Part shown: positions 2,193 to 51,937 of the stretch, one piece after another
Position numbering within the stretch: the first letter of the stretch is position 1
Layout of the letters: each line of letters begins with the position of its first letter
Origin: a virus
DNA length: 64,000 nucleotides
Virus record (IMG/VR): IMGVR_UViG_3300025012_000049
Location: 32,304-96,303 of that record
Direction: 5' to 3' (one strand)
The notes under the pieces: model-generated
Seen by the model: only the letters and a program-made list of their open reading frames with translations
Told to the model about the DNA's origin: nothing
Databases searched by the model: none
Translations under genes and position numbers: made by a program

Positions 2193-3266
2193 ATGGGCTT
2201 ATTTAATAATAAGAGACTTATACGAAAAAATGCGTTATCTGTTTCCAAATCAAGACAAGAAACCAGAGATGCTATTATATGGGAGGTACTACCAACACAA
2301 CGTTTATGCAAAATAAAAATACAAGGATCAACTAATTTTCTTTATGCGAGATATCCACAAAATTGGGAATCAACCCCACAATACTTAAAAGCTGGTAATG
2401 CGGTAAGAATTGTGCATCGTGGAGGGAATAGAAATATTCTGGAAATAGTGGGGCATGGTAGAAATATACCCACATTTCCAGATTCAACAGACGTAATAGT
2501 TCCAATTGGTTCAAATAATGCAGTGTTAAGTGGTTTGGATATTTATGCTATAAGTGGTGTGATGAGGGTGGAGGTCTATAATGGAACATACAGAATAAAT
2601 GATGTAACTTACAGTGTTGGTGGTTTACTGCTTGGTAATGATTATAATACAATGGTTTTGGGTGATAATGTTATTTTAGGCGAATCTGTTGGGGTGTTTA
2701 CATTTACTGCACCATCGGCAGGTTATTGGCGCTATGATATGCTTGTAATTGGCGCTGATGGAACAATAGATAAAGTTGTTGGTACACAAACAATTAGTGA
2801 TCCAGCAATGCCAGCAACCCCAAGTAGCCATATAAAAATAGGTCATGTTTTGTTGTATGGTGGGATGACAGAAATAACTCAGGCTTATATTAATAAAATG
2901 TGGGAAGTATCTGTGCCTACATCAATGTTGGTTTCTCCGGTTTACTCAGAAATGGATTGGTTGGATAATCCGTTAAATATTACAGTTACAATCAAAGATC
3001 AAAATGGGATAAATCTTTCTGGTAATTGGAATATAAGTGTATCATTTGATGTTGGTAACGGATATTTTGATAATAATCCTGACTTTACAAATGGTATAAA
3101 AAGTACAGGGGGAACAGCTTCAGTAACATTTGCTTATTACAGATTAAATGATTTAATAGGTGAAACAGATGTTTCTCCACAAATAAGATTTAGTTTAAAT
3201 GGATATCCATTTAACATAGTTGTTGTAGTTATGTTATATGATTCTTTAGGCGAGTATATGTTATAG
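2193..3266 (+). CDS. Baseplate/spike-like structural protein
   Basis: 357 residues. ATG 2193 was chosen because GGAG lies 9 bases upstream; an in-frame TTG at 2178 overlaps the previous gene and has no such site. The N-terminal third has an OB-fold-like pattern (IIWEVLPTQRLCKIKIQGS) as in gp5/gpV-type spike proteins. The middle is a Gly/Ser/Thr-rich strand region and the C-terminus looks like an Ig-like domain (LNITVTIKDQNG). It probably sits under the hub protein encoded just upstream. No enzyme motif is visible. Confidence 0.5.
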   Translation: MGLFNNKRLIRKNALSVSKSRQETRDAIIWEVLPTQRLCKIKIQGSTNFLYARYPQNWESTPQYLKAGNAVRIVHRGGNRNILEIVGHGRNIPTFPDSTDVIVPIGSNNAVLSGLDIYAISGVMRVEVYNGTYRINDVTYSVGGLLLGNDYNTMVLGDNVILGESVGVFTFTAPSAGYWRYDMLVIGADGTIDKVVGTQTISDPAMPATPSSHIKIGHVLLYGGMTEITQAYINKMWEVSVPTSMLVSPVYSEMDWLDNPLNITVTIKDQNGINLSGNWNISVSFDVGNGYFDNNPDFTNGIKSTGGTASVTFAYYRLNDLIGETDVSPQIRFSLNGYPFNIVVVVMLYDSLGEYML

Positions 3267-3280
3267 AAAGGAAAATTAAA

Positions 3281-3514
3281 ATGACAGATAGAGAACTGTT
3301 GGAGTTTATTTTGACAAAAGTTATAAATATTGAACAACAATTAACAGAAAGCAAAGCAGAACAAGAACGATACAAACAAAAATCCATAAGAATAAGGCAA
3401 CGAGCAAAATTGCAAATGGAGGCACAAATGAGCCATATGCCTCCAGCAATAAGACAAATAATGCAAGCAGCAATTCCTACAAATATAGATGATGAAGATG
3501 AAGGAGAAAACTAA
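3281..3514 (+). CDS. Small coiled-coil protein in the tail operon
   Basis: 77 residues, hydrophilic, with a probable helix/coiled coil over residues 8-45 (many Q, E, K) and an acidic tail (DDEDEGEN). An AGAAAGGAAA ribosome site lies upstream, and its stop overlaps the ATG of the next gene. A chaperone or linker role is possible, but nothing specific is recognised. Confidence 0.6.
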   Translation: MTDRELLEFILTKVINIEQQLTESKAEQERYKQKSIRIRQRAKLQMEAQMSHMPPAIRQIMQAAIPTNIDDEDEGEN

Positions 3515-4284
3515 TGTATAATTTTATTACTGCTTTGGTTGAGGGAACAACAAGATTTAATAAAGTGGATATGGAGGCACAAACCAAAGACTTAGATAAA
3601 GCTATTACTTATAAACATAATTTTCTTTTTCATTGTGATGGGGATATTACTTGGTCAAGCGGTACACTCACTTGGTCAGATAAAATGAGGATTATTTTCA
3701 TATCTGATGCCGGGAATGCTATTGCTAATGAAATCGCTGCTGGTAATATTGCTTTAGCGGATAACGAATATGCTTATGTTGATTTAAATGAAACCAACAA
3801 TAGTGTATTGACCGTTTCCAAAACCACCATTACTACCGGGGCCGCTGCTGGATATATTGGTGTTGGTCGAGTAGTATTAGGTTATCGAAATACCGCCAGT
3901 GATAATTTTTATCCAGTTGCTATTAAGAAAAAGTTTGAAACGGCTTTAACCGGGATTGGTTTGGAATTAACTGGTTATTCTGAAACAGAGGTTGGACCTG
4001 TTGATGCCTCTGGCGGAACGGCTAATATTGATTATGCAGCAGGAAATGTGCAGAGAGTCACTATTGGCGATGGTGTGGATGCAGCACTGACCTTTACCAA
4101 CTTACCTACAGGAAAAAGTTGTTCGGCAACACTACGATTAGAAATGGCAGGAGCAGTGCCAACAACCATTACATTACAAGGGACAACCATTGATACTACC
4201 GGAGTAACTGCCACGGGAGAAATTCTCGTAGAAGCTATTCGGATTAGTACGGATTGGTATATGGCGGTGCATCATGCCTCTTAG
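3514..4284 (+). CDS. Tail fibre/baseplate-like protein
   Basis: 256 residues; the ATG overlaps the preceding stop. The N-terminus looks like a virion attachment segment, followed by Thr/Gly/Ala-rich strand repeats common in fibre shafts (TTITTGAAAGYIGVGRVVLG, then a VQRVTIGDG/TTITLQG jelly-roll-like end). Base composition from about 3640 to 4260 is visibly richer in GC than the neighbours, which suggests module exchange. A receptor-binding or fibre role is inferred. Confidence 0.5.
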   Translation: MYNFITALVEGTTRFNKVDMEAQTKDLDKAITYKHNFLFHCDGDITWSSGTLTWSDKMRIIFISDAGNAIANEIAAGNIALADNEYAYVDLNETNNSVLTVSKTTITTGAAAGYIGVGRVVLGYRNTASDNFYPVAIKKKFETALTGIGLELTGYSETEVGPVDASGGTANIDYAAGNVQRVTIGDGVDAALTFTNLPTGKSCSATLRLEMAGAVPTTITLQGTTIDTTGVTATGEILVEAIRISTDWYMAVHHAS

Positions 4285-4942
4285 TCATCGTGGAAGAATG
4301 ATGGGTGGTGGAGAATTATCGCCACCAACACCACCAGAAGATGTCGTTTTTGATTATACAACTTTTACTGAGGTTGATCCTAATAGTAGATATACTGTTG
4401 GTGTTGCCAGCATAGCTTTTGCAGCATTACCTAGAAATGAATCTTCCTATATTTACAAAGATATGGGTGTTAATTATTATTCAGGTAACTTTAAATTTGA
4501 CTTTGATTATATAGCTACAGCATATGGTTCTGCTGGTCATGCTGAACCGTGGGCTTTAGCTAATGCGGTAAATAATGTTTATACACTGAGAACTTCAGGT
4601 GAATCATTGTTGCAATGCTCTGCTTATATATTCAGTGGTGCGATTCGTTTTGAAGTATATGAAATAATTGGCACAGTGGTTAGGTCGTCTGGTAATTATC
4701 AAGGTACATGGAATAGTCAATACTATTTAACAGTTGAGCGGGATGAAAGTATTGGTACTTATGGAAGATTGTATCTTAGGGTTTATTCTGATGCAGCACG
4801 CACTACACTGTTATCAGAGGTCTATCTTGATTTAACTGCAAAATTGGATTTTAGATATTTATATGGGATTAGTTCAATTAATACGGGGGAAACAGATTGG
4901 TTAACTGGTTCTGTTTCTAATCTTACACAAGTAAATACATGA
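4274..4942 (+). CDS. Putative tail-tip lectin-like protein
   Basis: 222 residues, overlapping the previous gene by 11 bases. A Gly/Pro-rich N-terminus (GGGELSPPTPPED) looks like a flexible linker. The body is all strand (YSGNFKFDFDY, NSQYYLTVERDE, YGRLYLRVYSD), reminiscent of concanavalin-like/jelly-roll glycan-binding domains on phage tips. Function is inferred from this pattern and from its place at the end of the tail block, just before the glycosyltransferases. Confidence 0.45.
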   Translation: MPLSHRGRMMGGGELSPPTPPEDVVFDYTTFTEVDPNSRYTVGVASIAFAALPRNESSYIYKDMGVNYYSGNFKFDFDYIATAYGSAGHAEPWALANAVNNVYTLRTSGESLLQCSAYIFSGAIRFEVYEIIGTVVRSSGNYQGTWNSQYYLTVERDESIGTYGRLYLRVYSDAARTTLLSEVYLDLTAKLDFRYLYGISSINTGETDWLTGSVSNLTQVNT

Positions 4943-7896: not shown

Positions 7897-8478
7897 ATGT
7901 CAGATTTTGAAGATAGCTATAAGAAACTGATTGGTCATGAGGGAGAATATAGTCATGACCCCAATGATAATGGTGGAGAAACGTATAAAGGTATATCAAG
8001 GGTACACCATCCTGATTGGGAAGGTTGGAAAATTATTGATGAAGCAAAAAACAAACCAAATTTTCCAATTAATTTAAGGAGTAATCAAGAATTGGAAAAT
8101 TTGGTTATGGTGTTTTATAAACAATATTATTGGGATAAAATAAAATTGGATAATATAAATTCCCCAAAAATAAAATATGAATTGTTTGAAATTGGGGTAA
8201 ATATGGGTTTAGGTATTGCTGTTAAATTTTTACAAGAATCTATAAATTTACTGAATAGAAACAAAAAGAATTATACTAATATAGAGGTTGATGGTAATAT
8301 TGGTACAGATACCTTGTTAAAAACTCAGAAACTACTAGATATAGGTGATGAACATATCTTGTTTAATTTAATAAACATGTTGCAAGGAGAACGTTATATA
8401 GAAATTTGTCGTAGAAATGAAACCCAAGAAACATTTATCCGTGGATGGTTAAATAGAATTGATATAGTTAAAAATTAA
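7897..8478 (+). CDS. Endolysin, GH108 N-acetylmuramidase with PG-binding domain
   Basis: 193 residues, AAGGAG upstream. The N-terminal domain carries the GH108 signature EGEYSHDPNDNGGETYKGIS with the catalytic Glu near residue 15, as in secretion-activator/TtsA-type muramidases and many endolysins of Gram-negative phages. The C-terminal half has the family's associated peptidoglycan-binding segment (GLGIAVKFLQESIN, VDGNIGTDTLLKTQ). No signal peptide, so a holin is needed. Its last 11 bases overlap the end of the convergent primase gene. Confidence 0.9.
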   Translation: MSDFEDSYKKLIGHEGEYSHDPNDNGGETYKGISRVHHPDWEGWKIIDEAKNKPNFPINLRSNQELENLVMVFYKQYYWDKIKLDNINSPKIKYELFEIGVNMGLGIAVKFLQESINLLNRNKKNYTNIEVDGNIGTDTLLKTQKLLDIGDEHILFNLINMLQGERYIEICRRNETQETFIRGWLNRIDIVKN

Positions 8479-10567
8479 TTTGTTTTTTAAATATTTGTTT
8501 TAATTGTTTGAATGTAAGGCTATTTGGGTCAGCCTCTTTACCATTTACATCTGGCAAAATAATAAAATCAACATCCATTGGAAAAGTATCTTTATATTTT
8601 TTATAGTCAAACCATGCTTTAGAATCTAGTATAAATATAACCTGTTTAGGATTTTTTTCAATCAATAATTTTATCTGGTTTCTGGATAATGATTTAACAA
8701 ATCCCGTGGTAACAGAAAATTTATCAGGGTAATAATGTTTAACAAAACTTTTTAAATGTAAAGCATCCAAATAACCTTCAGTTACTAATACAGGTTTACT
8801 TTCAATAATATCATCTTCCCATAAAAGATAATGTGCCAAGTTTGGTGGGATATGATATTTTTTAAAAGTAATAAATCGCCATTGATAACTGACAAGTTTA
8901 CCACCAACATAAACAGGGAAAACAATCTTATTTGTATGCTGTTTTATTCCTATTCTGAGGTCATGTTTGACTATATCCCAAGGTTTGATCCGCCTTTCCT
9001 TGAGAAAGGCTTTTAATAGAGGATTTCTTGAAATAATACCTTGGGTAATAGGTCTATTTTCAGGGAGTTCATCCGTTCCTCGATAACTATATTCCTTTTC
9101 TTTCTTATTACCACCATAAAGTATTTGTTTTACTCGATCTTCTAAATCCATTTCTTGATTATCTGATAAGGATATTAAATATTTCGCAGCACCAATAATG
9201 GAGGTGTTTTTTAATAAGGCAACAGTATTTAAAGGACCATAATTACATTTACAAATAAAACAGGTGATGTTTAAAGAATCTTTATTTAAAGCAGCGTGAA
9301 ATCGAGAATCAGCACAATTCTTAACAACAGAACCATTTGCAGTGTATGTATGGTCATTTTCAATGGTTAAATTATAGACAAATGTATTTACATTTCTTAA
9401 TAATTTTGTTTTTTTCAATTTACCATACCACTCACCATTTATAAAACGTATATTTTTATGTTTTTTAGCACTCCGATGTTTTGGGTTGTACCCAATAGTA
9501 ACACAAGGTTTTCTTACTATACCATCTGCACCTGTTCTATAATTAGTAAATGTGTTTATAGAGGTTGGAAAACCAAGCCGCCTCAACAATATAGATGTTT
9601 GTAATGCTAAATGAAAACTGGTTGTAGTTAATGTTTTATGTCCTGTTTTTGTGGTACAACCATCACCGTCAAACAAACCCTTTAAAAATTTCCGAATAGA
9701 ATAAACATTTGAATTATATAAAATTTCATCAGGTACAATTTTATTTGTTGAGCCTCTTCCACACTTTATGAAATTTGGAACTTGTTTTACATCATTTAAA
9801 TCTACAAACATACCAAGGTCATTTTTTTTATTATATTTTTTTCCTTTTTTATAAAAATTTATAATTTTGTCTGCTATATTTTTTTTTGTTGTTTGATTCA
9901 AAGAAAAGGAAATTGTTCGTAAATTTTTTCCCCCACCAATTGAGCCTTCTGCACAATAAAGACCTAGAAAATAGGCATTATCAACTATTTTATTAAATTT
10001 TGTTTTTATATCGGGAAGTTTTACCCATAAATTGTTTTTGTTAAATGCGTTGTTTGAAAAATCCCCAGCTTTGATTTTATTAAATAACCAAGTTTGGTGT
10101 GTTCTTGTTGTACTGCCTTGTGATTTTTTTTCTACATAACCATAAATATGTTTACCATTAATAATTTCAGCACAGTATATTTCATGATTTTTTGTACATT
10201 TGGTTGGCTTCACCATACCATACGCAAAATACTCTATTAAATTTTCTCTTTCTATTTTTCTTTTCCAAAATTTTAAAATTTTATTAAAATGACCATTTTT
10301 GGACAACACACCACCATTATATGATTCTAAATTTTCAATTGGAATCATGCCATTTTCAGTAAGGATTAAAGTATCACCAGTAAAACAATTAGGGCATGGA
10401 GAGATACCAATAAAACCTTTGGAACTAGAAATATTTTTACCTTCCAAAGAATATTCTAAATTACTATTATCCAATAATTCAAAAATATCTATTTTTTCTA
10501 AACCCTGTTGTATTCTATAATCATTAAAATCAATATCATGATGTTTTTCTTTATTATATTTCTTCAT
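8468..10567 (-). CDS. DnaG-type primase with an in-frame LAGLIDADG intein
   Basis: 699-residue precursor; the mature primase is about 342 residues. The extein carries a zinc ribbon: CPN before the intein and CADSRFHAAL...CFIC after it rejoin as CPxC(A)...H...CxxC, the DnaG pattern. The C-terminal part has a TOPRIM-like domain (LVTEGYLDALHL, VIFILDS). It would lay RNA primers with the DnaB-like helicase at 13733. The intein lies at residues 61-417. The gene overlaps the helicase gene upstream by 4 bases (ATGA). Confidence 0.85.
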   Translation of the reverse strand: MKKYNKEKHHDIDFNDYRIQQGLEKIDIFELLDNSNLEYSLEGKNISSSKGFIGISPCPNCFTGDTLILTENGMIPIENLESYNGGVLSKNGHFNKILKFWKRKIERENLIEYFAYGMVKPTKCTKNHEIYCAEIINGKHIYGYVEKKSQGSTTRTHQTWLFNKIKAGDFSNNAFNKNNLWVKLPDIKTKFNKIVDNAYFLGLYCAEGSIGGGKNLRTISFSLNQTTKKNIADKIINFYKKGKKYNKKNDLGMFVDLNDVKQVPNFIKCGRGSTNKIVPDEILYNSNVYSIRKFLKGLFDGDGCTTKTGHKTLTTTSFHLALQTSILLRRLGFPTSINTFTNYRTGADGIVRKPCVTIGYNPKHRSAKKHKNIRFINGEWYGKLKKTKLLRNVNTFVYNLTIENDHTYTANGSVVKNCADSRFHAALNKDSLNITCFICKCNYGPLNTVALLKNTSIIGAAKYLISLSDNQEMDLEDRVKQILYGGNKKEKEYSYRGTDELPENRPITQGIISRNPLLKAFLKERRIKPWDIVKHDLRIGIKQHTNKIVFPVYVGGKLVSYQWRFITFKKYHIPPNLAHYLLWEDDIIESKPVLVTEGYLDALHLKSFVKHYYPDKFSVTTGFVKSLSRNQIKLLIEKNPKQVIFILDSKAWFDYKKYKDTFPMDVDFIILPDVNGKEADPNSLTFKQLKQIFKKQINF
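9317..10387 (-). other. Intein (357 aa) in the primase zinc finger
   Basis: Starts with Cys1 in CFTGDTLIL (block A) and ends HTYTANGSVVKN followed by Cys+1 (blocks F/G), so the splice residues needed are present. Two LAGLIDADG helices are visible (AYFLGLYCAEGSI and FLKGLFDGDGC), so it is a full homing intein. The penultimate residue is Lys rather than the usual His, which some functional inteins tolerate. Confidence 0.9.
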
Positions 10568-16095: not shown

Positions 16096-16798
16096 TTGTC
16101 TCCTCTTCAGTCAAAAATCTAAATATCCAGCCTTTATATGTTTTTATTTTTCCAAGGATATAAGCACTTATTAAATTTTGTGATAGACCGTGCTTTTTAG
16201 CAAAATCAGTTTGATTATTGCTTATATATTTTACCCCTTCTGGTGAAGTAGCTTCAAACCATTTATTTTTTCTGGTATTTTTATTTTACTCACTCCGAGG
16301 AATCCAACAACAATTCTCTTTACAGTAGTTGCCGTTTATATCTTTTCTTTCAATAGTTATTGGATTGTTTTTTGATAATACATCTCTATATGTTTGTTTT
16401 ATAGCAATTAAATAAGACATATACATATCTTTTTTGAATTCCAAAAAATCTCCCCACCTTGGGTCATAGGTTATACCCCTTCCACCATAGTCATTGAAAG
16501 ATTTACAGTTTATATCATTGCATCTTTGTCTTATTCCTTTCCACAAAATATAAAATTTAGATTTTCCTGACCTTTTAGCGAACCCATGTTTTGTGTTTAC
16601 TTCTTTTATTCTTTCTATTGTATAACAACCACAACTTTTTGCTTTACCTGTTTTTAGGGTTGCTGCTGTTACCTTTACTTTGTTCCCACAATCACACTCA
16701 CATAACCATACATTTTGTCTATATTTATTTTTACCAATAATCATTTTAGCGGTTAACCTTGTAAATTTTTTATCAGTTAAGTCCAGAGGCATAGCCAT
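16076..16798 (-). pseudogene. HNH-like homing endonuclease interrupted by an ochre codon
   Basis: The intact 170-residue part (16286-16798) has the FTRLTA...CDCGN...SCGC N-terminal zinc segment and the nuclease signature DYGGRGI...RW..F..F...ITIERKDINGNYCKENCCW. After TAA at 16286-16288 the same frame continues (KNTRKNKWFEATSPEG...GWIFRFLTEE) and matches the full-length relative at 35001-35717 to its end. That copy has Gln two residues before KNTR, so CAA to TAA is the simplest history. The lost part is the C-terminal DNA-binding domain. The final codons supply the GAGGAG site for the exonuclease gene. Confidence 0.85.
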
Positions 16799-16799
16799 T

Positions 16800-16859
16800 T
16801 TATGTTTTCCTTTTCAATTGATGCCTTTTTGTTTTCTTTTTTAGCACCATACGTTTCAT
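16800..16859 (-). CDS. 19-codon basic mini-ORF
   Basis: ATG 16859 overlaps the stop of the gene before it (ATGA), with AAGGAAG upstream. The 19-residue product (MKRMVLKKKTKRHQLKRKT) is almost all Lys/Arg and resembles the N-terminal tags of the neighbouring exonuclease and of the protein at 23541. It may be a relic of an N-terminus separated from its gene by the homing endonuclease. Confidence 0.3.
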   Translation of the reverse strand: MKRMVLKKKTKRHQLKRKT

Positions 16860-17368
16860 GTTTTCTTCCTTAGTTTTATTCTTTTTACGTTTTTACCTTT
16901 TGATTTTAAAGTTAAACGTTTTGTTGTTTTTACTTCGGTTGTTTTTCTCTTCAATACAGGCTTTCTACTAACTACATGGAAAGAACCAGTACCAGTTTGC
17001 ATCAATTGTTTATAGGCTTTGAGAAAATGATTATGTGTTTCTGGATTAAGTTCTAATTCTTTTATAGCTTTTTCTGATGGGTAGAAAAAATCATCTGTGC
17101 AACGTTCTTTGTTTTCAACATCAATGAAATATCTTTTTATTTTCCACTTATCAATACGAATAAAAAACTCTTTGGTTTTTTCTTCTATTTTTAATAATGG
17201 AAAATGATCTCTTATCCAAGGACCAACAGAACTAAGATTGCTTTTGTTTTTGGCTTGCTGATAACTGCTTCCATGCACCCTTAACAACGCTTCTTGTTGT
17301 TCCAATCTTTCAGGGGTCATCAATTGTTTGCGTAAAATAGAACGTTTAAATTTATTGACCATTTTCAT
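16856..17368 (-). CDS. Basic protein with double C-terminal tag
   Basis: 170 residues, highly Lys/Arg rich. N-terminal helices (LMTPERLEQQEALLRVHG), a mixed middle, and a C-terminus with two copies of the basic motif (KRLTLKSK and KRIKLRKK). Probably binds nucleic acid or a replisome partner. The start (17368 or 17362) lies inside the end of the upstream gene. No family recognised. Confidence 0.6.
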   Translation of the reverse strand: MKMVNKFKRSILRKQLMTPERLEQQEALLRVHGSSYQQAKNKSNLSSVGPWIRDHFPLLKIEEKTKEFFIRIDKWKIKRYFIDVENKERCTDDFFYPSEKAIKELELNPETHNHFLKAYKQLMQTGTGSFHVVSRKPVLKRKTTEVKTTKRLTLKSKGKNVKRIKLRKKT

Positions 17369-34359: not shown

Positions 34360-34551
34360 TTACCTCTTAATAGTTACACCAGTTCCGATTTTCTCAGTTT
34401 CATAATATTCTGGTTTATGTTTTTTATTGGTGACTTTACCTAGTGCTTCTTCAATTTTCTTGGTTGCTTGTTCACAACTTATCCCTTTAAAATTTTGACC
34501 TTCAATTTGGATTTCTCCTTTTGGAGAAATTGTTATAATAATTTCCGGCAT
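34360..34551 (-). CDS. DUF2997 protein
   Basis: 63 residues, the usual length. Starts EIIITISPKGEIQIEGQNF, then GISCEQATKKIEEALG and KPEYYET, the DUF2997 pattern. The family is commonly neighbour to DUF1257 (Ycf35) and AAA ATPase genes, as here at 35720 and 37158. Biochemical role unknown. Confidence 0.8.
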   Translation of the reverse strand: MPEIIITISPKGEIQIEGQNFKGISCEQATKKIEEALGKVTNKKHKPEYYETEKIGTGVTIKR

Positions 34552-34771: not shown

Positions 34772-35026
34772 TTATGAGAATAATTCCTGATTAAAGAATT
34801 CAATTTCAGCATTGATAGCATCTTCCCTTTTAACAAATGCCATAGGAAGACAGCAACCAGTATAAATGCCGTGTAGAATTGTGACAACCCATTTTTGAAT
34901 ATTTGCATTAAACTCAACTTCACTAACACGTTTTATTTCTTTTTTGCCTTCAAACTCAGAAAGAAAATCTGAGTACAAAGAATGAATTGTTCCATCTGGT
35001 TTAATTATTAGGTTTATTTCTTTCAT
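34772..35026 (-). CDS. Small protein resembling the DUF2997 start
   Basis: 84 residues. KEINLIIKPDGTIHSLYSD recalls the strand-turn-strand start of DUF2997, with an unrelated C-terminus (two Cys at GCC). Its ribosome site GGAGAAA lies within the last codons of the homing endonuclease upstream. Confidence 0.5.
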   Translation of the reverse strand: MKEINLIIKPDGTIHSLYSDFLSEFEGKKEIKRVSEVEFNANIQKWVVTILHGIYTGCCLPMAFVKREDAINAEIEFFNQELFS

Positions 35027-35717
35027 TTTTAAATTTCTCCAATATATCCTCTTCTGTTAGATATCTAAAAACCCAGCCTTTATGTTGTTTATATTTCCCC
35101 AATAAACAATTGTTCAAACTTTTTCTGTTTAGTTTGTGTTCTTTAGAAAAATCAGATTGGTTTTTACTTTTGTATTTTTTTCCATTTGGAGAAAATGCTA
35201 TAAACCATTTATTTCTCCTTGTATTTTTTCCCTGTAGATTTTTTGGTATAAAAACACAATTAACAAAAGTGTAGTTATTATTACTATCTTTTCTTTCAAG
35301 GGTCAGGTAGTTTTTTTCTGTTATTTCTTTTCTATATACCTTTTTGGCATGAATATACTTAAAATACATATCTTTTTTAAACTCTAAAAAATCATTCCAT
35401 CTAGGATCATGAATTATACCTCTACCACCATAAAAAGGATAATCAAGGGTGTTTTTATTATTACATCTTCTTCGCATGGAAGACCAGTATTTATAAAGAA
35501 TATGTTTTGTTTCCCCATGCTTTTTGCTTAAATTTCCTCTGATTTCGCGTGTAAGACAACCACATGATTTTGTATGTCCATTTAACAAAGCATAAATTCT
35601 TACTGAACTTATTTTATTATTGTCACAAACACATACGCAGAGAAAATTATATGTTTTTGTTTTGTCTTTTTTTATTACTGTTAATCTCCCAAATTTCTTC
35701 CCTATAATATCATTCAT
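35001..35717 (-). CDS. HNH-like homing endonuclease (intact)
   Basis: 238 residues in three parts: an N-terminal zinc-like segment (GRLTVIKK...CVCVCDNN...SCGC), the nuclease core (RRRCNN...FYGGRGI..DPRW.DFLEFKKDMYF...LTLERKDSNNNYTFVNC) and a C-terminal DNA-binding domain (KWFIAFSPNGKKYKS...HKGWVFRYL) like NUMOD-type repeats. It is inserted between DUF1257 and the next gene of the module, and its end overlaps that gene by 26 bases. A relative with a stop is at 16076. Confidence 0.75.
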   Translation of the reverse strand: MNDIIGKKFGRLTVIKKDKTKTYNFLCVCVCDNNKISSVRIYALLNGHTKSCGCLTREIRGNLSKKHGETKHILYKYWSSMRRRCNNKNTLDYPFYGGRGIIHDPRWNDFLEFKKDMYFKYIHAKKVYRKEITEKNYLTLERKDSNNNYTFVNCVFIPKNLQGKNTRRNKWFIAFSPNGKKYKSKNQSDFSKEHKLNRKSLNNCLLGKYKQHKGWVFRYLTEEDILEKFKNERNKPNN

Positions 35718-35719
35718 TT

Positions 35720-36106
35720 TTAATTTACCATTATTTTTAATTCAATAACTCCGTTTTCTTTTGTTTTTTCTGTAAAAATATATCCTTGCATTTTTGCCAC
35801 ATTTTTTGCAACTTCAACAGCATAAGTTTGTTTTAGTTTATTTGCATTTTCACCTAATACTTTTGATAAACCTCCAGAAGAATATGAGTCCCATTGAAGT
35901 ACATAATCATTATTCTCACCCTTAATTATGCCTAGATCAAAGGAACAATTAGGGAAAGAAGCAGCATGGAGGCATTTCCCTTTTCTTCCTGCATAATAAC
36001 TAAATTCAGTTTTATTTTTATGAAATGTGCCACCTAATTTTTTAACTGCTTTTTCCAAACAAGGAAGATTATTAACTTCAAGATTTATTTTACTGATATG
36101 ACTCAT
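35720..36106 (-). CDS. DUF1257 (Ycf35-like) protein
   Basis: 128 residues. MSHISKINLEVNNLPCLEKAVKKLG at residues 1-25 and the later LQWDSYSSGGLSKVLGENANKLKQ...AVEVAKNVAKMQGY are the DUF1257 pattern seen in cyanobacterial Ycf35 and many phages. Function unknown; neighbours are the AAA ATPase and DUF2997. Confidence 0.8.
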   Translation of the reverse strand: MSHISKINLEVNNLPCLEKAVKKLGGTFHKNKTEFSYYAGRKGKCLHAASFPNCSFDLGIIKGENNDYVLQWDSYSSGGLSKVLGENANKLKQTYAVEVAKNVAKMQGYIFTEKTKENGVIELKIMVN

Positions 36107-37157: not shown

Positions 37158-38957
37158 TCAATTCAATTTAAGTTTCCTACCCCCAACAGCCTTGTTATCG
37201 GTTTTAGGTTTCAATTGAATCTTTTTCCTAATTGCACCATCTTTACTACTAGCAGCACGGAACTGTTTAGCTTTCTTTCTGATTTCATCCATATCATCTT
37301 TTCGGAAATCTGCCAATAAAGGAATATTATTCATAGCAGTTTCCAAATCATCGAAATGAGAATCTTTAGCCAATTGTTCAATTTCTGCACCTGTCCATTG
37401 TTCCTCAGCTAATTCTTTACAGAATTCTTCATTTACTGGTAGTTTTGCATGATAACGTCTATTCATAATTTCAAGGATAAATTTAATTTCATTGGCATTA
37501 GGAGTATCTACAAACCATAGAGAATCCCACCTACCTGAACGCATAAATTCAACAGGTAATTTTGATAAATCATTTGCCGTGGCTACAATAATACCGTCTG
37601 ATGTACGATCATTCAACCATGTAAGAATTGTACCAAATAAACCTTGACTAACTCCTGAATCAAGATTTTGTCCTCCTGCTCCTGCAAGCGCTTTATCCAC
37701 CTCCAAATGTTACGGAATAACCGTTTCCGTTATTCCTCTTATAGTTTCCTATAAGTTCAGACTATATCTTTAATTACCTTTTATTTCGGCAATTACTCCC
37801 CATTTCGGATTCACTTGAATCCTACTCCGTATGGATAGTCGTTGAACCTTCACCATTTTAAAGGTGCTTGGCTGCTGATTGCCCAATCCAATCAATTCTC
37901 AAACATTCACGCTTACTGTTTCCAGTTACGTTGTAGTTTGATTGGCTCTAAGGGGTTTCCAGCAATTAAGGGAGTTTTAGATCGACAAGGTTGCTTTTTT
38001 ATCGATCAGAATGATTGCCTTGCCGAACGCATCAATTGTTTTACAAGCTAATCTTACATTTTTTTCTGTCTCCCCAACAATACCACCTTTCATTGCTCCA
38101 ATGTCTAATTGAATAAGCGGCCAATCAAAAATTGATGCTAAGCATTTAGCAGAAAGTGACTTACCCGTCCCGCTTAATCCGGCAAGAAGTAATGAACGCA
38201 ATTTTGGTTTATTACTACCATCAACAAAAGCTTCCTTTCTTTTGAAGACATATTCTTTCAATTTATCCAAACCACCAAGATTTTCAATTGGTTCAGGATT
38301 CATAAAATCCATAAATCCAGTGGATTTTATAATTTGTCGTTTCCTGTCAAGAATAGATTTAATATCAAATCGTTTATATTCAATCAATGACAGGGATAAA
38401 GCATTTTCAATTTCTTCATTGGATAATCCAAGACAGGCAGAAATAACTTCATCAGAATAGGAAAAATCAAATTGATCTTTTACCTTTTCATAATTTTCAG
38501 ATTGTTTAAAATCTTCTTCTGCTGATTTAGAAATGGTACTGACAATCAGTTTTACTTCTTCCTTATCAGGTAAATTAAATTGAATAATAGGAATAAGTTC
38601 TTTAAGAACAGTTGGAATTTTATTAGGGGTATGACCGACAATTACCAAACAAACTTGATTAGCTTTACACAATTCATAATTATTCAGGAACATTTGAATA
38701 ATTGTAGGATTTTCTAAAAAGAAATCATAATTTTCCAGAATGATTGCTTTTTGTTGTAATTCAGTTGCTTTCTGAAGAATAGATAGTTGGTCAGCATCTT
38801 CTGATTGACTATCAATGGTTAAACCTGAAACCATATTCCATTCAATTTTTTCAAATGGTGGTTTTACCGTAATGGATTTAACTGCACGTTTAATTTCTAA
38901 TGCTTCTACATATAGTGCAGCATATCCAGCGGAAAGATATTTACTAATATCTGACAT
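37158..38957 (-). CDS. Ycf46-like AAA+ ATPase, two exons around a group I intron
   Basis: Exon 1 is 38957-38001 (319 codons), exon 2 is 37703-37158 (181 codons plus stop); join gives 500 residues in frame. The N-terminal 210 residues are a degenerate ATPase-like domain as in Ycf46 (GYAALYVEALEIKRAV, ILENYDFFLENP). The AAA+ motor has Walker A AGLSGTGKS, Walker B AIILID|EVD across the exon junction, sensor 1 IIVATAN, and RSGRWD. It ends GRKLKLN, the recurrent tag. Without splicing the product stops after ILID with a short intron-encoded tail. Confidence 0.9.
37704..38000 (-). ncRNA. Group I intron (297 nt, no ORF)
   Basis: All core elements are readable on the minus strand. The exon end GATCGAT pairs with GTCGATC (37986-37980) as P1 with the required U.G at the splice site; AATTGCTGGAAACCCC (P4 side) and AATCAGCAGCCAAG (P6/J) follow; the 3' half has CGACTATCC and AAGATATAGTC (P7/P3 segments) and P9 hairpins; the last base is G at 37704. 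Splicing restores GAT|GAG. It is small and has no endonuclease. Confidence 0.92.
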
Positions 38958-39838: not shown

Positions 39839-40036
39839 TTATTTCTCCTTTCTGCCAGCGTAAAAACCAGCCATAAAGATATATTCCAATTGTTTGTTTT
39901 TATCCATGATGTTTAAATGATCTTTATTCATTTTAAAGAAATATTCTTTAGCTTTAAATCCTTGTTGATAATCATCCAATGTCAAATTTTCCTCTTTATA
40001 TTTTATTTTTAAATTATACCTTTTGAATTTATTCAT
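39839..40036 (-). CDS. Hypothetical protein
   Basis: 65 residues; overlaps the polymerase stop by ATGA. Basic and helical (DDYQQGFKAKEYFFKMNKDHL, FMAGFYAGRKEK). Unknown, but translationally coupled to the polymerase. Confidence 0.5.
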   Translation of the reverse strand: MNKFKRYNLKIKYKEENLTLDDYQQGFKAKEYFFKMNKDHLNIMDKNKQLEYIFMAGFYAGRKEK

Positions 40037-42258
40037 ACATATTTAAACTCCCAATCTTTTAATTGATATGGTTTATCTTCTTTATCTTTTTTACCAGCTA
40101 ATATTTTAGCAATTAAACCAGTATCCATTCCCATTACCTCAGTAAAACCATGTAAGAATTTCTCTTTGAATACTTCTTCACTAGGTATATGTCTTGCTTC
40201 AAATAATTTATTTTCCAATTTTAAATCCAGCCAATTACTATCTGACAGCTCCCATTCTGCTTCCAACTTAACCTTTCCTAACCATTTAAACATGGGTTTG
40301 ATAGTCATACAACCTTCAACCAAATCCATGACTTGTTCAGCTTCATTTTTAAAGATATTGAAATAACCAGAGTCATGAATCTGACCAACAACTTTACTTC
40401 TCAAATCTAATTCTCGCATTTTGTTTTCTGTTTCAATCAAGGAATGTAGCAGCAAATGAAATGAGGTTGATTGTATTGGAAAATTAATAATCTCATTACG
40501 TTTCATTGGATAACGTCTTCTGAAGCCCAATGGATTTTCCACATAACCTAAATCATAATAACTATCAACAATCCATTTTTGCCATTCTTCCACACCACTA
40601 TAACGTTTATAAAAAACTTTTTGGCATTCAGTAATGTGTTGTTCTGAATAATCCTTAAAGAAATCACTCCAAGATTTATCAAATCCTTTTACCTGTTTGG
40701 CTTTTTGAAAAGCTTTCTTTACATATTCTACATAGAAATCAGATTTCCTGAATTCCTCTGCCATGGAAATTGAACTGGCACCAAACAAATTAGCAAAAGT
40801 AAAATTATTCTTGGCAAGAAATCTTTCATCCTTATGGGTTGCTTTTATTTCATCGACTGATTTGTTAATACCAAAAATAACTCCTGCCCAATGGGAATGT
40901 TGGTCATAACCATTATTTAAATCTTCAATTAATTGGTCGTCTTCTGATATAGCGGCAGCTACTTTAACTTCAGCACCAACATAATCGACCTCTCCAAGCA
41001 TCCCCTCTTGGAGATTTAATTGATAATTCCCACATTGATACTGTTTATAAAATTCAATTCTGGTAAAAATTTTTCTGATATTATGCCAAGGAACACCATT
41101 AATAATATCACCATGTTTTGGTATGGTGTTATGTACCACAATATTGTTTGCTACAAAAGAGTGTGAATCTTCAATTGTTAAATCAAAAGTCTCACACTCA
41201 CCGGCAGGAATAATACTTACAATTTCTTTTTCTTCAAACGCTTGTAAGTTGGCCGATACATTTTCATTAATGCTTCCCTCATTGATAAACCAATTGATAG
41301 ACGGTAATGAAATCTCCCTGTTGATATGCCATACTCTCTTGCCCAATCTGCCAATGATTGTGTTTTTCCTAAATAAGTTAAAAGTCTTTTTACTCTTCGA
41401 TTGTCTGCTTGCATTTTTGGGGTTGCCCAACAACAATTCTTTGGTGAATAATTGCCATTTACATTTATTCGTTCTATTGACCAACCCTTTTCTGGTTTTT
41501 CTCCCATATCTTTTAGAAAAAATCTGAATTTGTGCCATCTTGTGCAAACTTTTATTCCTCTTCCCCCGTATCGTGGATAATCTTTGCTTGTTTTGCTGTT
41601 GCATCTGTTTTTCATTGCTGCCCAACTGTAATAAGTTGGGCTTGTATAATTCTTTGTTCTGTGACCTAAACTCATAACAAATATCTCCTTTAAGTAATTG
41701 GTCTGTACGAACCCATCCACGTTTTGTTAGATATGGATGATTTTCCGTACTTGTTACCATATTACCACTTTCAGAAGATACGGCAAACACCTTTTTTATT
41801 CCATTACGATACACACCAATAATTTTTTTCCAAGAACCATCATGAGTAAGAACTTCAAATTGTTCATTATTTTCATATCTTTTTACAATTTCCTCAATTG
41901 CAATATTTCCTTTATTTGTTAATACTAATACACCCCCTTTAAGGCATTGGAAGAGAGTAGCAGAACTTCTATATGTACGAGTAGAATGCAACCAAAAATC
42001 AGTATGAAAGAAAATATCTGATTCATTAGCAATAAGTCTACGAAAACCTTTCACATAGGTATTCTTGGCTTTTTTCAATTTTCTTGCATTAATCAATAAT
42101 TTACAAAACTCAACATTTTCCTTTTCTGCGTAATGTAACAATACATCTTCTGCTACCGAATAATTACCCTTATCATTTTTCCCTTTAGTTGGTTTCAATT
42201 CAAGAAATTCAAAGAGAAATTGCTGCATTTGTACAGGGCTGGCAATATTGAAAATCAT
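40033..42258 (-). CDS. Family A DNA polymerase, polymerase half, with intein
   Basis: 741-residue precursor, mature about 468. The start FNIASPVQMQQFLFEFL is the point where Pol I palms reach NixSPkQL, so the exonuclease domain is missing; it is encoded at 43768. Polymerase motifs: TRTYRSSATLFQ|TIPKHGD (the LQNIP-like site, split by the intein), motif A DYVGAEVKVAAA, O-helix RFLAKNNFTFANLFGA, motif C QIHDSGYF (HDS where most have HDE). Intein at residues 105-377. Confidence 0.88.
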   Translation of the reverse strand: MIFNIASPVQMQQFLFEFLELKPTKGKNDKGNYSVAEDVLLHYAEKENVEFCKLLINARKLKKAKNTYVKGFRRLIANESDIFFHTDFWLHSTRTYRSSATLFQCLKGGVLVLTNKGNIAIEEIVKRYENNEQFEVLTHDGSWKKIIGVYRNGIKKVFAVSSESGNMVTSTENHPYLTKRGWVRTDQLLKGDICYEFRSQNKELYKPNLLQLGSNEKQMQQQNKQRLSTIRGKRNKSLHKMAQIQIFSKRYGRKTRKGLVNRTNKCKWQLFTKELLLGNPKNASRQSKSKKTFNLFRKNTIIGRLGKRVWHINREISLPSINWFINEGSINENVSANLQAFEEKEIVSIIPAGECETFDLTIEDSHSFVANNIVVHNTIPKHGDIINGVPWHNIRKIFTRIEFYKQYQCGNYQLNLQEGMLGEVDYVGAEVKVAAAISEDDQLIEDLNNGYDQHSHWAGVIFGINKSVDEIKATHKDERFLAKNNFTFANLFGASSISMAEEFRKSDFYVEYVKKAFQKAKQVKGFDKSWSDFFKDYSEQHITECQKVFYKRYSGVEEWQKWIVDSYYDLGYVENPLGFRRRYPMKRNEIINFPIQSTSFHLLLHSLIETENKMRELDLRSKVVGQIHDSGYFNIFKNEAEQVMDLVEGCMTIKPMFKWLGKVKLEAEWELSDSNWLDLKLENKLFEARHIPSEEVFKEKFLHGFTEVMGMDTGLIAKILAGKKDKEDKPYQLKDWEFKYV
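41128..41946 (-). other. Intein (273 aa) in DNA polymerase
   Basis: Starts Cys1 in CLKGGVLVLT, block B-like STENHPYLT, and ends DSHSFVANNIVVHN followed by Thr+1; the His-Asn pair and Thr nucleophile are correct for splicing. Residues about 195-337 have no intein motif, are highly basic, and are the second frame of the endonuclease gene at 41217. The frame stays open throughout. Confidence 0.88.
41217..41675 (-). CDS. HNH-like homing endonuclease nested in the intein, other frame
   Basis: 152 residues from ATG 41675, with AAAGGAG 9 bases upstream (encoded by the intein's LLKGDICYE). Its signature matches the free-standing genes here: SWAAMKNRCNS...YGGRGIKVC.RWHKF...FLKDMGEKP...SIERINVNGNYSPKNCCWATPKMQADNRR. 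A C-terminal helix-turn-helix (QSLADWAREYGISTGRFHYRL) likely binds DNA. It lies in a different frame from the intein and ends within it. It lacks the N-terminal zinc segment. Confidence 0.8.
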   Translation of the reverse strand: MSLGHRTKNYTSPTYYSWAAMKNRCNSKTSKDYPRYGGRGIKVCTRWHKFRFFLKDMGEKPEKGWSIERINVNGNYSPKNCCWATPKMQADNRRVKRLLTYLGKTQSLADWAREYGISTGRFHYRLSIGLSMREALMKMYRPTYKRLKKKKL

Positions 42259-42615: not shown

Positions 42616-43593
42616 TTATTTACTCCTTAAAGAAATACGTTTTGGTTTAGTTCTTTTCAATTTGTATCTTTTTGGTAATGTTGATGGAATTTCTAAATAA
42701 TCAAGAACTTTTTGTATTCCAAGATTCTCCATACAATATTTATGTAATTGTGGGTGTATTTTTCTCATTATATGAAATCTATTAATTTTTTCCATATGAA
42801 TGCCAAACATACAAAACATACAGCCAGTTCTTCCAATTCCTTTTTTATAAATATCTGCATAAGGTAAATTATTTGTATGGATGTATTTCCAAATGTCTTT
42901 TTCTGTAAAAATAGACAATGGTTTACTTTGTGGTTTGTTTAGTGTGAAACTATTGCATCCATATTCTTTCCATTGACCCAAACGAACACCACTATCATCG
43001 GTCATTGTCCCTATATATGGTTTTCTATTTGTTTGTTTTTCATATATATATATAGGTTTCTTTTTTATCCAGTCACAACAGTATTCACTTATTTTAAATG
43101 GTGCTATTAATAGTTTATGCCACTTATCAGACAACTTAGCTCTCTGTTTATATACACCTTTATTCCATCCAGTTAAATGATATTTGCTAATATTTGAATT
43201 GGGATTGTGTCTTATTTTCCTTATTCTTAAAGAAACTTCTTTACTTATTACTGGATAACCATATTCTTCAATTACTTGTTTGAAATTCTTTTTAGGTTTA
43301 ACCCACATAACATTATCAAATGTTTTAACAAACTCTCTGATTTCAGGCCATTCAAGACCAGTATCAGAAAATACAGCAGGAACATCTGGATAAATTTGTC
43401 TAACCAAATGCAATAAAACTGTTGAATCTTTTCCACCAGAAAAAGAAACATATACATTTCCATTCCAATATTCATACCACTCTTTGATTTTCTCTTGTGC
43501 ATAAAGTACCTTTGTTTCTAATGATAAAGATTGTAAAAGTTTTAAATCTTGGTATGTTCTTTTTTGTTTTCTTTTTAGTTTGTGTTTTATCAT
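42616..43593 (-). CDS. PAPS reductase-family PP-loop protein
   Basis: 325 residues. SFSGGKDSTVLLHL near residue 52 is the PP-loop ATP site; DTGLEWPEIREFV and PVISKEVSLRIRKI follow the PAPS reductase/DndC pattern, with cysteines in CCDW and GRTGCMFCMFG near the end that could ligate Fe-S. Possible roles are nucleotide or DNA sulfur modification or tRNA thiolation. It lies between the two polymerase genes. Ends PKRISLRSK, encoded by DNA identical to the end of the UDG-exonuclease gene. Confidence 0.75.
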   Translation of the reverse strand: MIKHKLKRKQKRTYQDLKLLQSLSLETKVLYAQEKIKEWYEYWNGNVYVSFSGGKDSTVLLHLVRQIYPDVPAVFSDTGLEWPEIREFVKTFDNVMWVKPKKNFKQVIEEYGYPVISKEVSLRIRKIRHNPNSNISKYHLTGWNKGVYKQRAKLSDKWHKLLIAPFKISEYCCDWIKKKPIYIYEKQTNRKPYIGTMTDDSGVRLGQWKEYGCNSFTLNKPQSKPLSIFTEKDIWKYIHTNNLPYADIYKKGIGRTGCMFCMFGIHMEKINRFHIMRKIHPQLHKYCMENLGIQKVLDYLEIPSTLPKRYKLKRTKPKRISLRSK

Positions 43594-43767: not shown

Positions 43768-45390
43768 TTATCTTCTCCTTAAAGAAATACGTTTTGGTTT
43801 TTCAAAACATAAAGATTGTAAATCTTTTTCCTCTTTCTTCTTTTTAGTCTTTCCTGTTTTGTTCTCAAGGTATTTGTTAAACTCAATAACTTCAGGCATT
43901 GATTCAATTTCTGCTTCAATTCGTTCTATTTCTTTATCCAGAAACTTTTCAAATTCATTCAATTCCTGTTCACCAATATTGATTCCCCTTTGGGTCATAT
44001 CAGCAAACAACATATGACCATCATATAAGAATTCATAATTTTCCTTGGCTTTGGGATATATATCAAATAAGTCTTTTCGAAACAATAAAAAATTATTAAA
44101 TGTAGTGATAACGTCTAAAGCATTGTATTGAATCATATCTTCTTTTGGTGCTTCTCGAATCTTATTTACTTTTTCAAAGGTATAGTTACCAACATCATCA
44201 TTATCTTCCTCTTCTGAATCATTATCTTCTTTATCAATGGATTTTTTACTGGTTTCCAAATATTTCTTAATAGTCTCATTATATGGTGGAATTCCAAACC
44301 TTACCAAGTTCTGAAAATCCAAGGAAGTACAACCTTCCCGCTCATCAATAACATGGGTTGCCAACATGGTACAAAACATATTTTCAATTCTTTTAATTTT
44401 AAAAATAAACCGACTGGCTAAATCTTCAAATTTACTATTTTGAATAACTTTACAAATATTTTTATTGGTTAGTAATTTCTGCATTTGCAAATGAAACCAT
44501 ATTTCTATTTTCTTATCCTTCTTCCAAAAATCCTCATGGAATACCCATGCACTTTGCTTATTAGCAAAGGCAATATAGATTATTTCAAAGTAATGGTCAT
44601 AAGGAAACAGATTAGTGGTTTCATAGTCTAAAGCAATCTCTTTACATTGGTTCCATAAATTAAATAATTGCTTGGCTTCTTTTACTGTTTTAACTTCGGT
44701 AATAGTTATACCTTCAAGTATTTTCCGTTCCTGCAATATTTTTTTGACTTCGGTACGTTTGTAGGCAATTTTATTCCAAAACTTAAAAATTCTTTCCAAG
44801 TCACGTTTGTAAGTATGTTGATAATAATAATTCAATTCATCAATACCGTTTTTCTTACTATACATTTCCCGATTGTAAGGATCATAAACTGGAAATACCA
44901 AACAATTATATTCATAATTAGGTATAATTCTATTTCTAAGTTTGGAAATGGCATATTTATTTTTCAGGTTGAATAAATATTTAAATGCCATTTCACCACA
45001 ACAAATAATCAATTTAGGTTTTAACTCTTTAAGACGTGCATCCAAAATACTTTGACAGCATTTAAAATGTGTATCCGAGGTTTTCTTTTTGGAAGGATTA
45101 TAGCAAGAGACAGCATGAAGCATTGCCGATTGTTTGGCTAGATTGATACCAAATTTAATAGCAATACTTCTGAGAATTTTAGATCGTGAATCAGCAAATG
45201 GTTTGCCTTTTTCATCATCTTCTTTGGATACCTTTTGGCCCAATATAATTAATCCATCATATTGTGGTCCTTGATATATTTCCAATACTGGATTATCAAT
45301 CTTATTATTTTTCAAACCACATTTATTACAATCAAATTTTGAATTGTTAGTTTTTTTATTTAATGATGGTATTGGAAAATAAAAAGACAT
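43768..45390 (-). CDS. Family 4 UDG fused to DNA polymerase 3'-5' exonuclease
   Basis: 540 residues. Residues 20-200 form a family-4 uracil-DNA glycosylase with Fe-S cysteines spaced as expected (C21xxC24, C96, C112), LIILGQKVS and GKPFADSRSKIL. Residues 225-480 are the Pol I exonuclease: exo I ALDYET, exo II IQNSKFED, exo III YNALDV. It continues to the start of the thumb and stops exactly where the polymerase gene at 42258 begins. Ends PKRISLRRR, whose codons also provide the ribosome site of the next gene. Confidence 0.85.
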   Translation of the reverse strand: MSFYFPIPSLNKKTNNSKFDCNKCGLKNNKIDNPVLEIYQGPQYDGLIILGQKVSKEDDEKGKPFADSRSKILRSIAIKFGINLAKQSAMLHAVSCYNPSKKKTSDTHFKCCQSILDARLKELKPKLIICCGEMAFKYLFNLKNKYAISKLRNRIIPNYEYNCLVFPVYDPYNREMYSKKNGIDELNYYYQHTYKRDLERIFKFWNKIAYKRTEVKKILQERKILEGITITEVKTVKEAKQLFNLWNQCKEIALDYETTNLFPYDHYFEIIYIAFANKQSAWVFHEDFWKKDKKIEIWFHLQMQKLLTNKNICKVIQNSKFEDLASRFIFKIKRIENMFCTMLATHVIDEREGCTSLDFQNLVRFGIPPYNETIKKYLETSKKSIDKEDNDSEEEDNDDVGNYTFEKVNKIREAPKEDMIQYNALDVITTFNNFLLFRKDLFDIYPKAKENYEFLYDGHMLFADMTQRGINIGEQELNEFEKFLDKEIERIEAEIESMPEVIEFNKYLENKTGKTKKKKEEKDLQSLCFEKPKRISLRRR

Positions 45391-50851: not shown

Positions 50852-51937
50852 TTAATTCTCCTTTTCTGTTTTATATTCCCCAATAACAAACACCTTTCTG
50901 CACCTTACTTTGGTAATATCATTAGGATAAACCACAAAATCATCAACATGTACCTTACATTTTAAAAGTTTTCCTTTATTATATTTTAATGCCATCTCAG
51001 GTTTTGGTGAGAGATGCAAACCACCTCCACATTGTCTATTTTTATCCTCATCAAAATCAGGACAAATAATTTCTTCACCAACATTATATTTAATTTTGCC
51101 AGTATAAAAATCACAATTTGTTTCGGGGTTTACGGATTTAAACAAAAGAATATGTTCACTATCAACCATAGGATAAATATCAATAAATGAATCTTTTGTG
51201 TGTTTAAATTGTCTTTGTTTGATTACTTGTACTGATTTATCTTTAATTATTGTTGGCTTACAATCAAAACAAATAATAACTGAATTGTGTTTAGCAGTTA
51301 TTTTGCTTTTGTTTGAATAACACCTTGCAATTGCTGTTTCAAAAAGAGTTGTTTGGGAATTCCCCCACATTACATTTACTTGGGAATTATCCAGCATTTC
51401 ATTTACTTGGGAATTCCCCCACATTTCATTTACTTGGGAATTCCCCCACATTTCATTTACTTGGGAATTCCCCCACATTTCATTTACTTGGGAATTATTC
51501 CGCATTACATTTACTTGGGAATTCTCCCGCATTACATTTACTTGGGAATTCTCCCGCATTACATTTACTTGGGAATTCCCCCACATTTCATTTACTTGGG
51601 AATTATCCAGCATTTCATTTACTTGGGAATTACCCCACATTACATTTACTTGGGAATTACCCCACATTACATTTACTTGGGAATTATCCCGCATTTCATT
51701 TACTTGGGAATTATTCCGCATTACATTTACTTGGGAATTATTCCGCATTACATTTACTTGGGAATTCCCCCACATTATATTTACTGTTGTTTTGTTAACC
51801 AGTATAACAATACTGTTTTCTCTGTGAGAAAATAAATTAATTTGTTCACTAGCATCAATAATAATTTTAGTTGTTTTTTTGAATACTTTTGGTAATTTAT
51901 CCAGTTGTTTTTGATTTTTAACAATGATCTCTTTCAT
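50852..51937 (-). CDS. Protein with 16 tandem 9-residue NSQVN repeats
   Basis: 361 residues. A helical/strand N-terminal cap (about 50 residues), 16 units of consensus NSQVN(V/E)M(W/R/L)x, and a C-terminal domain with Cys/His residues (CGGGLHLSPKPEMAL, VRCRKVFVIGEY). Nine-residue repeats with one small polar stretch per unit suggest a right-handed solenoid. Encoded by near-identical 27-bp DNA repeats, so copy number can change easily. Role unknown; mimicry of nucleic acid or surface binding are options. Confidence 0.65.
   Translation of the reverse strand: MKEIIVKNQKQLDKLPKVFKKTTKIIIDASEQINLFSHRENSIVILVNKTTVNIMWGNSQVNVMRNNSQVNVMRNNSQVNEMRDNSQVNVMWGNSQVNVMWGNSQVNEMLDNSQVNEMWGNSQVNVMRENSQVNVMRENSQVNVMRNNSQVNEMWGNSQVNEMWGNSQVNEMWGNSQVNEMLDNSQVNVMWGNSQTTLFETAIARCYSNKSKITAKHNSVIICFDCKPTIIKDKSVQVIKQRQFKHTKDSFIDIYPMVDSEHILLFKSVNPETNCDFYTGKIKYNVGEEIICPDFDEDKNRQCGGGLHLSPKPEMALKYNKGKLLKCKVHVDDFVVYPNDITKVRCRKVFVIGEYKTEKEN
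51354..51785 (-). repeat. 16 x 27-bp tandem repeat inside a gene
   Basis: 432 bases, exactly 16 units of 27, all starting (plus strand) with TTGGGAATT. As 27 is a multiple of 3, other frames also stay open, which explains long false ORFs on the plus strand. Units differ mostly at a few sites, indicating recent expansion or gene conversion. Confidence 0.95.

Follow-up and report, generated by a model that had tools for sequence, protein, structure and literature searches.

Does a phage gene for an AAA+ ATPase that is divided between two open reading frames (ORFs) inside its Walker B motif encode two fragments, or a single enzyme restored by splicing? The window examined here, a 64,000-nucleotide stretch, covers positions 32304-96303 of a 96,303-base IMG/VR virus record (IMGVR_UViG_3300025012_000049). 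Judged by the anatomy of the locus, a self-splicing group I intron of subgroup-IA type without an ORF almost certainly interrupts this gene between the Walker B Asp and Glu codons.

Gene structure and the restored ATPase

The features of the gene and its intron are collected in Table 1. Exon 1 ends in ATTCTGATCGAT (I-L-I-D; ...ATT CTG ATC GAT), and exon 2 opens with GAGGTGGAT (E-V-D), where GAG GTG GAT AAA reads E V D K. Rejoining the exons in a script keeps the frame and gives a product of 500 aa; the predicted ligated exons read ...CUGAUCGAU-GAGGUGGAU, with CTGATCGATGAGGTGGATAAAG as the predicted spliced junction. The preliminary description of this locus had given a 297-nt intron, the gene span 37158-38957, an ILID|EVD split and a 500-residue join, and every one of its numbers is right by sequence reading and in-script splicing.

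Joining restores one ATPase. The PF00004 (AAA) score rises to 72.6 bits for the joined protein vs 37.8 for exon 1 alone, and exon 2 alone has no match. The two halves abut at positions 371|372 of PHROG 8638, a family of unknown function that the joined protein matches with 294 bits. Walker A (GLSGTGKS), Walker B (ILIDE), sensor 1 (ATAND) and the arginine finger (RSGR) stand in one chain only after joining, and profile comparison identifies VCP/Cdc48-type ATPases as the solved relatives. The D|E position and the AAA ATPase product had both been proposed from the letters alone; the Pfam and PHROG scores and a gapless alignment across the junction agree with them. The intron lies between D319 and E320, the two Walker B acids with established roles in Mg binding and in catalysis, respectively. 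A cut between these two residues is an extreme case of insertion inside a catalytic motif, and automatic annotation of such genomes would report two broken ATPases.

Only three ORFs of at least 60 aa touch the intron: the exon-1 read-through, the exon-2 ORF and an opposite-strand ORF of 69 aa with a TTG start, which also extends into exon 1 and looks like chance. The exon-2 ORF begins at a TTG in the last bases of the intron, the only codon from which exon 2 could start separately. Within the 297 nt there is no ORF of at least 60 aa, and a homing endonuclease ORF is absent.

Table 1. Coordinates of the ATPase gene, its intron and the intron helices, with examples of proteins that carry a basic terminal peptide (window positions)
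Feature	Position	Strand	Details
Exon 1 of AAA+ ATPase gene	38001..38957	-	319 codons, Walker A to Asp of Walker B; ORF 37977..38957; PF00004 37.8 bits alone; PHROG 8638 positions 143-371
Group I intron, no ORF	37704..38000	-	297 nt; omega-G at 37704; RF00028, fold z-score, covariation with 12 other viral introns
Exon 2	37158..37703	-	181 codons + stop, catalytic Glu of Walker B to C-terminal RKLKLN; PHROG 8638 positions 372-494, abutting exon 1
P1	38001..38007 with 37980-37986	-	Exon strand GAUCGAU with guide GUCGAUC; 7/7 bp, U.G at 5' splice site; sequence and MFE helix
Internal guide	37980..37991	-	37980-37986 = P1 with 5' exon; 37987-37991 = P10 with 3' exon
In-frame stop UAA	37977..37979	-	Directly 3' of guide; from ORF end
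P3	37969-37975 with 37795-37801	-	Encloses P4-P6 domain; span 37795..37975
P4	37959-37964/37873-37878	-	Fold
P5	37952-37954/37882-37884	-	Fold; extended P5 = 37938-37945/37888-37895
P6	37870-37872/37846-37848 and 37863-37866/37851-37854	-	Fold
P7	37836-37840 with 37760-37764	-	GACUA with UAGUC; invariant in 13 introns
P7.1	37833-37835/37826-37828	-	UCC/GGA
P7.2	37817-37822/37807-37812	-	GGAUUC/GAAUCC
P8	37788-37794/37772-37778	-	Fold
P9	37749-37755 with 37738-37744	-	GAAA loop; 6/7 pairs covary
P9.1	37729-37736 with 37714-37721	-	MFE fold
Proteins with basic terminal peptide, examples	43768-45390; 42616-43593; 37158-37703; 16856-17368		Window; L376/L377 in G005

Identity and fold of the intron

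The intervening RNA matches the Rfam covariance model RF00028 over its whole length (model positions 1-253 of 253) with 89.2 bits (E 1.8e-21; gathering score 50), and across all 96 kb of the record it is the only group I intron that this search finds. Its minimum free energy (MFE) has a z-score of -5.73, and none of 100 dinucleotide shuffles is as stable. The MFE structure includes P1, P3, P4, P5 with a long extension, P6, P7.1, P7.2, P8, P9 and P9.1; P7 was placed over it as a pseudoknot. The perfect P1 proposed earlier (GATCGAT with GTCGATC, U.G at the splice site) holds at every position and is extended by two further A-U pairs within the intron (37999-38000 with 37987-37988). For P10, ACCUU (37987-37991) can form five of five pairs, one of them G.U, with the 3' exon sequence GAGGU (37699-37703), and the intron ends ...CATTTG|GAGGTG with its omega-G as the terminal base.

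Extra hairpins between P7 and P3 are typical of subgroup IA, as in T4 and related phages. The window intron has this mark, P7.1 and P7.2, between positions 37835 and 37807, and by this feature of its modelled fold the hairpins point to a subgroup-IA type.

Covariation was assessed across related introns. A core pattern search of viral contigs returned 120 similar stretches; the alignment holds the window intron and 12 of these pattern-found stretches that match it by BLAST, with pairs counted on the window intron's structure. In these 13 introns 95.3% of 598 cells are paired vs 32-41% in slid controls, a contrast partly biased because the structure derives from one row of the alignment; that bias does not explain the compensatory changes, which occur in 29 of 46 pairs. 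Double-change cells number 118, where shuffles lead one to expect 34.6, and none of 500 shuffles reached any of five covariation measures. P5, its extension, P6 and P9 covary, P7 is invariant, the P4-P6 domain is supported, and P3 and P8 are seen in the fold only. Model score, fold stability and covariation thus uphold the group I identity given in the preliminary description.

Homologues with an empty site

An alignment-based search of viral contigs found relatives (L089-L096) that are 41-47% identical to the joined protein along its full or almost full length. The aligned members run through the site as (L/M)DEIEK in one unbroken frame, with no gap at the D|E junction. Homologues are contiguous through (I/M/L)DE(I/V/L)(E/D)K and have no insert, and the ATPase is likewise uninterrupted in seven named phages with more distant homologues. 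The preliminary description had named the 297 bases occurring as coding sequence in relatives as a result that would speak against an intron; these relatives do not carry them so. A search of viral contigs with the single spliced protein as query returned no relatives, and a self-composed AAA-domain consensus retrieved distant ATPases only and was not used as evidence. In all 80 bacterial and archaeal relatives listed, where match length was compared with residues covered, the match span is too short for a 297-nt insert.

The best-covered relative, G005 (89 kb), has more than 20 genes collinear with the window; its ATPase gene lies within the collinear replication region and has no intron. An RF00028 search of 64 virus records, 61 of them reached via ATPase loci, finds no intron in the ATPase gene. 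The three records with confident introns are exactly the three reached through intron loci, and two more matches fall below the cut-off, away from the ATPase gene.

The intron in the ATPase gene is seen in one virus only, a metagenomic assembly, and a single record of this kind could hold an assembly chimera or a sequencing artefact. That explanation is scarcely credible, the least probable of those considered, because the guide, P10 and the reading frame all match this one exon junction, a precise fit not expected of a chimera.

Predicted splicing pathway

We infer splicing and its dependence on guanosine from the anatomy of the intron. The intron RNA would first fold; exogenous guanosine bound at P7 would then attack after U38001, held by the U.G pair in P1; the freed 5' exon would attack after omega-G 37704, with P10 aligning the 3' exon. 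The joined mRNA would encode the complete 500-residue ATPase, so intron removal would be needed for a working enzyme. Translation of unspliced RNA is predicted to end after ...ILID-KKATLSI, ahead of the catalytic core, and would yield only a 326-residue piece without the catalytic Glu and all that lies beyond it. The stop codon directly after the guide would keep ribosomes off the catalytic core. Some phage group I introns are spliced in infected cells but have not been shown to self-splice in vitro (PMC11878797); strict autonomy of the window intron is therefore not guaranteed.

A decayed ribozyme would leave the same layout: it would no longer splice, and two ATPase fragments would be made, whether or not they could assemble. 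Such decay is very improbable. It would be compatible with the missing ORF and with the in-frame TTG directly upstream of exon 2, at the intron end, but all core helices, P1, P10 and omega-G are intact, and the exons are undecayed, the joined protein keeping the residues conserved in the 41-47% identical relatives. Exon 2 also has no credible start site, and a cut inside the catalytic motif means that the fragments would be inactive.

An active intron might also serve as a control, delaying or conditioning ATPase production, for example through the GTP level or translation. The complete enzyme requires splicing, the stop codon that follows P1 so closely would tie folding to where the ribosome stands, and PMC11878797 puts forward a similar hypothesis, of 'molecular-on-switches', for introns in the replication genes of phages. 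Control is nevertheless unlikely: no regulatory element, alternative fold or conserved arrangement was found at this locus, relatives do without the intron, and the data are accounted for just as well if it persists as a near-neutral element. A step less likely again is the specific form, a functional switch in which Walker B splicing would respond to guanosine level or translation and time the active ATPase of the replication module. The delayed or controlled expression suggested in the preliminary description is speculation; nothing here favours control over near-neutral persistence.

Related introns and known systems

The nearest intron found is in another virus record (L197, IMGVR_UViG_3300044985_000073), 86% identical over 134 nt of core; the best intron of that record scores 94.9 bits with RF00028. 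It differs in its peripheral loops and in its host gene, named by eye as a tail-sheath-like structural protein gene, not an ATPase. The similarity of introns in such different genes indicates that introns of this type move between unrelated genes. In two further records (L253, L264), going by rough P1 calls, introns appear to interrupt the (N)xDFDG motif of a gene identified by eye as RNA polymerase. At about 2243-2510 of L204, a group I intron without an ORF lies in a phage P-loop NTPase gene (AESGSGKST), after ...RVKAKTIGK; it is short and of the same type as the window intron, but its gene belongs to another ATPase family (Sak4/AAA_24-like by eye) and it sits well past Walker B. A pattern of guide plus P3/P4, meant to detect introns at comparable sites, gave no matches. 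A crude P1 finder applied to the pattern-matched intron loci placed introns next to Walker B in L175, L204, L215 and L236. In L204, however, reading of the locus showed that this P1 was mistaken and that the intron sits farther downstream, so no Walker B hot spot is claimed.

Among known systems, the comparison is with the group IA introns of T4, Twort- and SPO1-like phages (td, nrdB, DNA polymerase, terminase, RNR), including those of Bastillevirinae (PMC11878797). They share with the window intron the P3-P9 core, the P7.1/P7.2 region, the guide and the U.G at the splice site, as well as insertion in a conserved motif, a nucleic-acid-metabolism gene as target and a phage host. The window intron differs in having no endonuclease ORF, and neither a PHROG 8638 AAA+ gene nor Walker B D|E is among the sites named in the available text of PMC11878797. 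In Bacillus anthracis and its relatives, the recA intron (cited in PMC3984707) is also a group I intron in the gene of an ATP-dependent protein, but that gene is bacterial and of another ATPase family. Searches of an open-access library returned no report of a phage AAA+ ATPase gene, or of a Walker B motif, that hosts a group I intron. Elements of this kind are familiar, but the host gene and the insertion point seem to be new, adding an AAA+ family of the phage replication module (PHROG 8638) to the known hosts of group I introns.

Arrival and persistence

Lateral transfer out of a different phage gene is the most likely origin of the intron, which would persist because its site, in an indispensable motif, tolerates exact loss alone. 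Introns are known to favour the most conserved motifs, where nothing short of exact loss restores the gene (PMC2988022). The guide pairs at 6-7 of 7 positions with the ordinary GAC|GAG Walker B coding sequence of two homologues (L097, L144), which makes the motif itself a possible landing site.

Introns without ORFs can be moved by trans-acting endonucleases (PMC3984707). The window intron might have been mobilised in this way (collaborative or 'trans' homing) by an HNH endonuclease that the phage encodes as a separate gene, for example the one at 35001-35717. The proposal is doubtful, if less so than a regulatory role. The intron itself has no ORF, the record holds several HNH genes (35001-35717, 16286-16798), G005 has no matching HNH gene in the neighbourhood of its intronless ATPase gene, and T4-like phages provide a precedent (PMC2988022, PMC3984707). 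The gene at 35001-35717, however, lies about 1.4 kb downstream of the ATPase gene and not beside the insertion site.

Other elements of the genome

With two inteins and several HNH genes in the same genome, this virus is a good place to study the crowding of such elements in replication genes. One intein (PF14890) is carried by a family-A DNA polymerase ORF at 40033-42258 (minus strand), and a LAGLIDADG intein (PF14528) by a primase-like gene at 8468-10567 (minus strand; named by eye and context). The G005 polymerase and primase have neither.

Between the splicing blocks of the polymerase intein, an HNH endonuclease gene (41217-41720, minus strand; PHROG 3377, 161 bits) is nested out of frame. 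It has its own Shine-Dalgarno sequence (AAAGGAG) and an ATG at 41675, and both frames are open; none of 20,000 codon-shuffled HNH versions left the intein frame open. A second virus (L380) has the same out-of-frame arrangement and frame offset, with an HNH at 3040-3513 in a polymerase intein, inside an enclosing frame at 2634-4445. Out-of-frame HNH insertions in phage methylases, without intein splicing domains, were described in 2025 (PMC11855218); the nested gene is related to these but differs in lying within a frame that can be recognised as an intein.

Two separate proteins make up DNA polymerase I, one with UDG plus exonuclease (43768-45390, minus strand) and the polymerase protein at 40033-42258, with two genes between; G005 also has the split, with one different gene between.

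Of 46 window proteins, 6 have a basic peptide, [KR][KR][ILM]x[LIF], within their last 12 residues vs 0.18 expected, as do 8 of 46 proteins in G005 vs 0.15 expected, with the motif chosen post hoc and the expectation taken from the internal rate. Variants (KRISLRRR, KRISLRSK, RKLKLN, KRKLTF, MKKLNLKK, MGRLNLKS) stand at the C- or N-termini of unrelated replication-module proteins, and the peptide may serve to dock these proteins onto a partner that they share.

Downstream of the ATPase gene, two small conserved genes (34360-34551 and 35720-36106, minus strand) are DUF2997- and DUF1257 (Ycf35-like)-like by eye and match PHROG 23133 and 20456; in Rhizobium phage RHph_I4 a DUF1257 gene is likewise annotated near the ATPase. 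At 50852-51937 (minus strand), a protein contains many near-perfect 9-residue repeats (NSQVNEMWG/NSQVNVMRN), in a region where two frames of the opposite strand are open as well.
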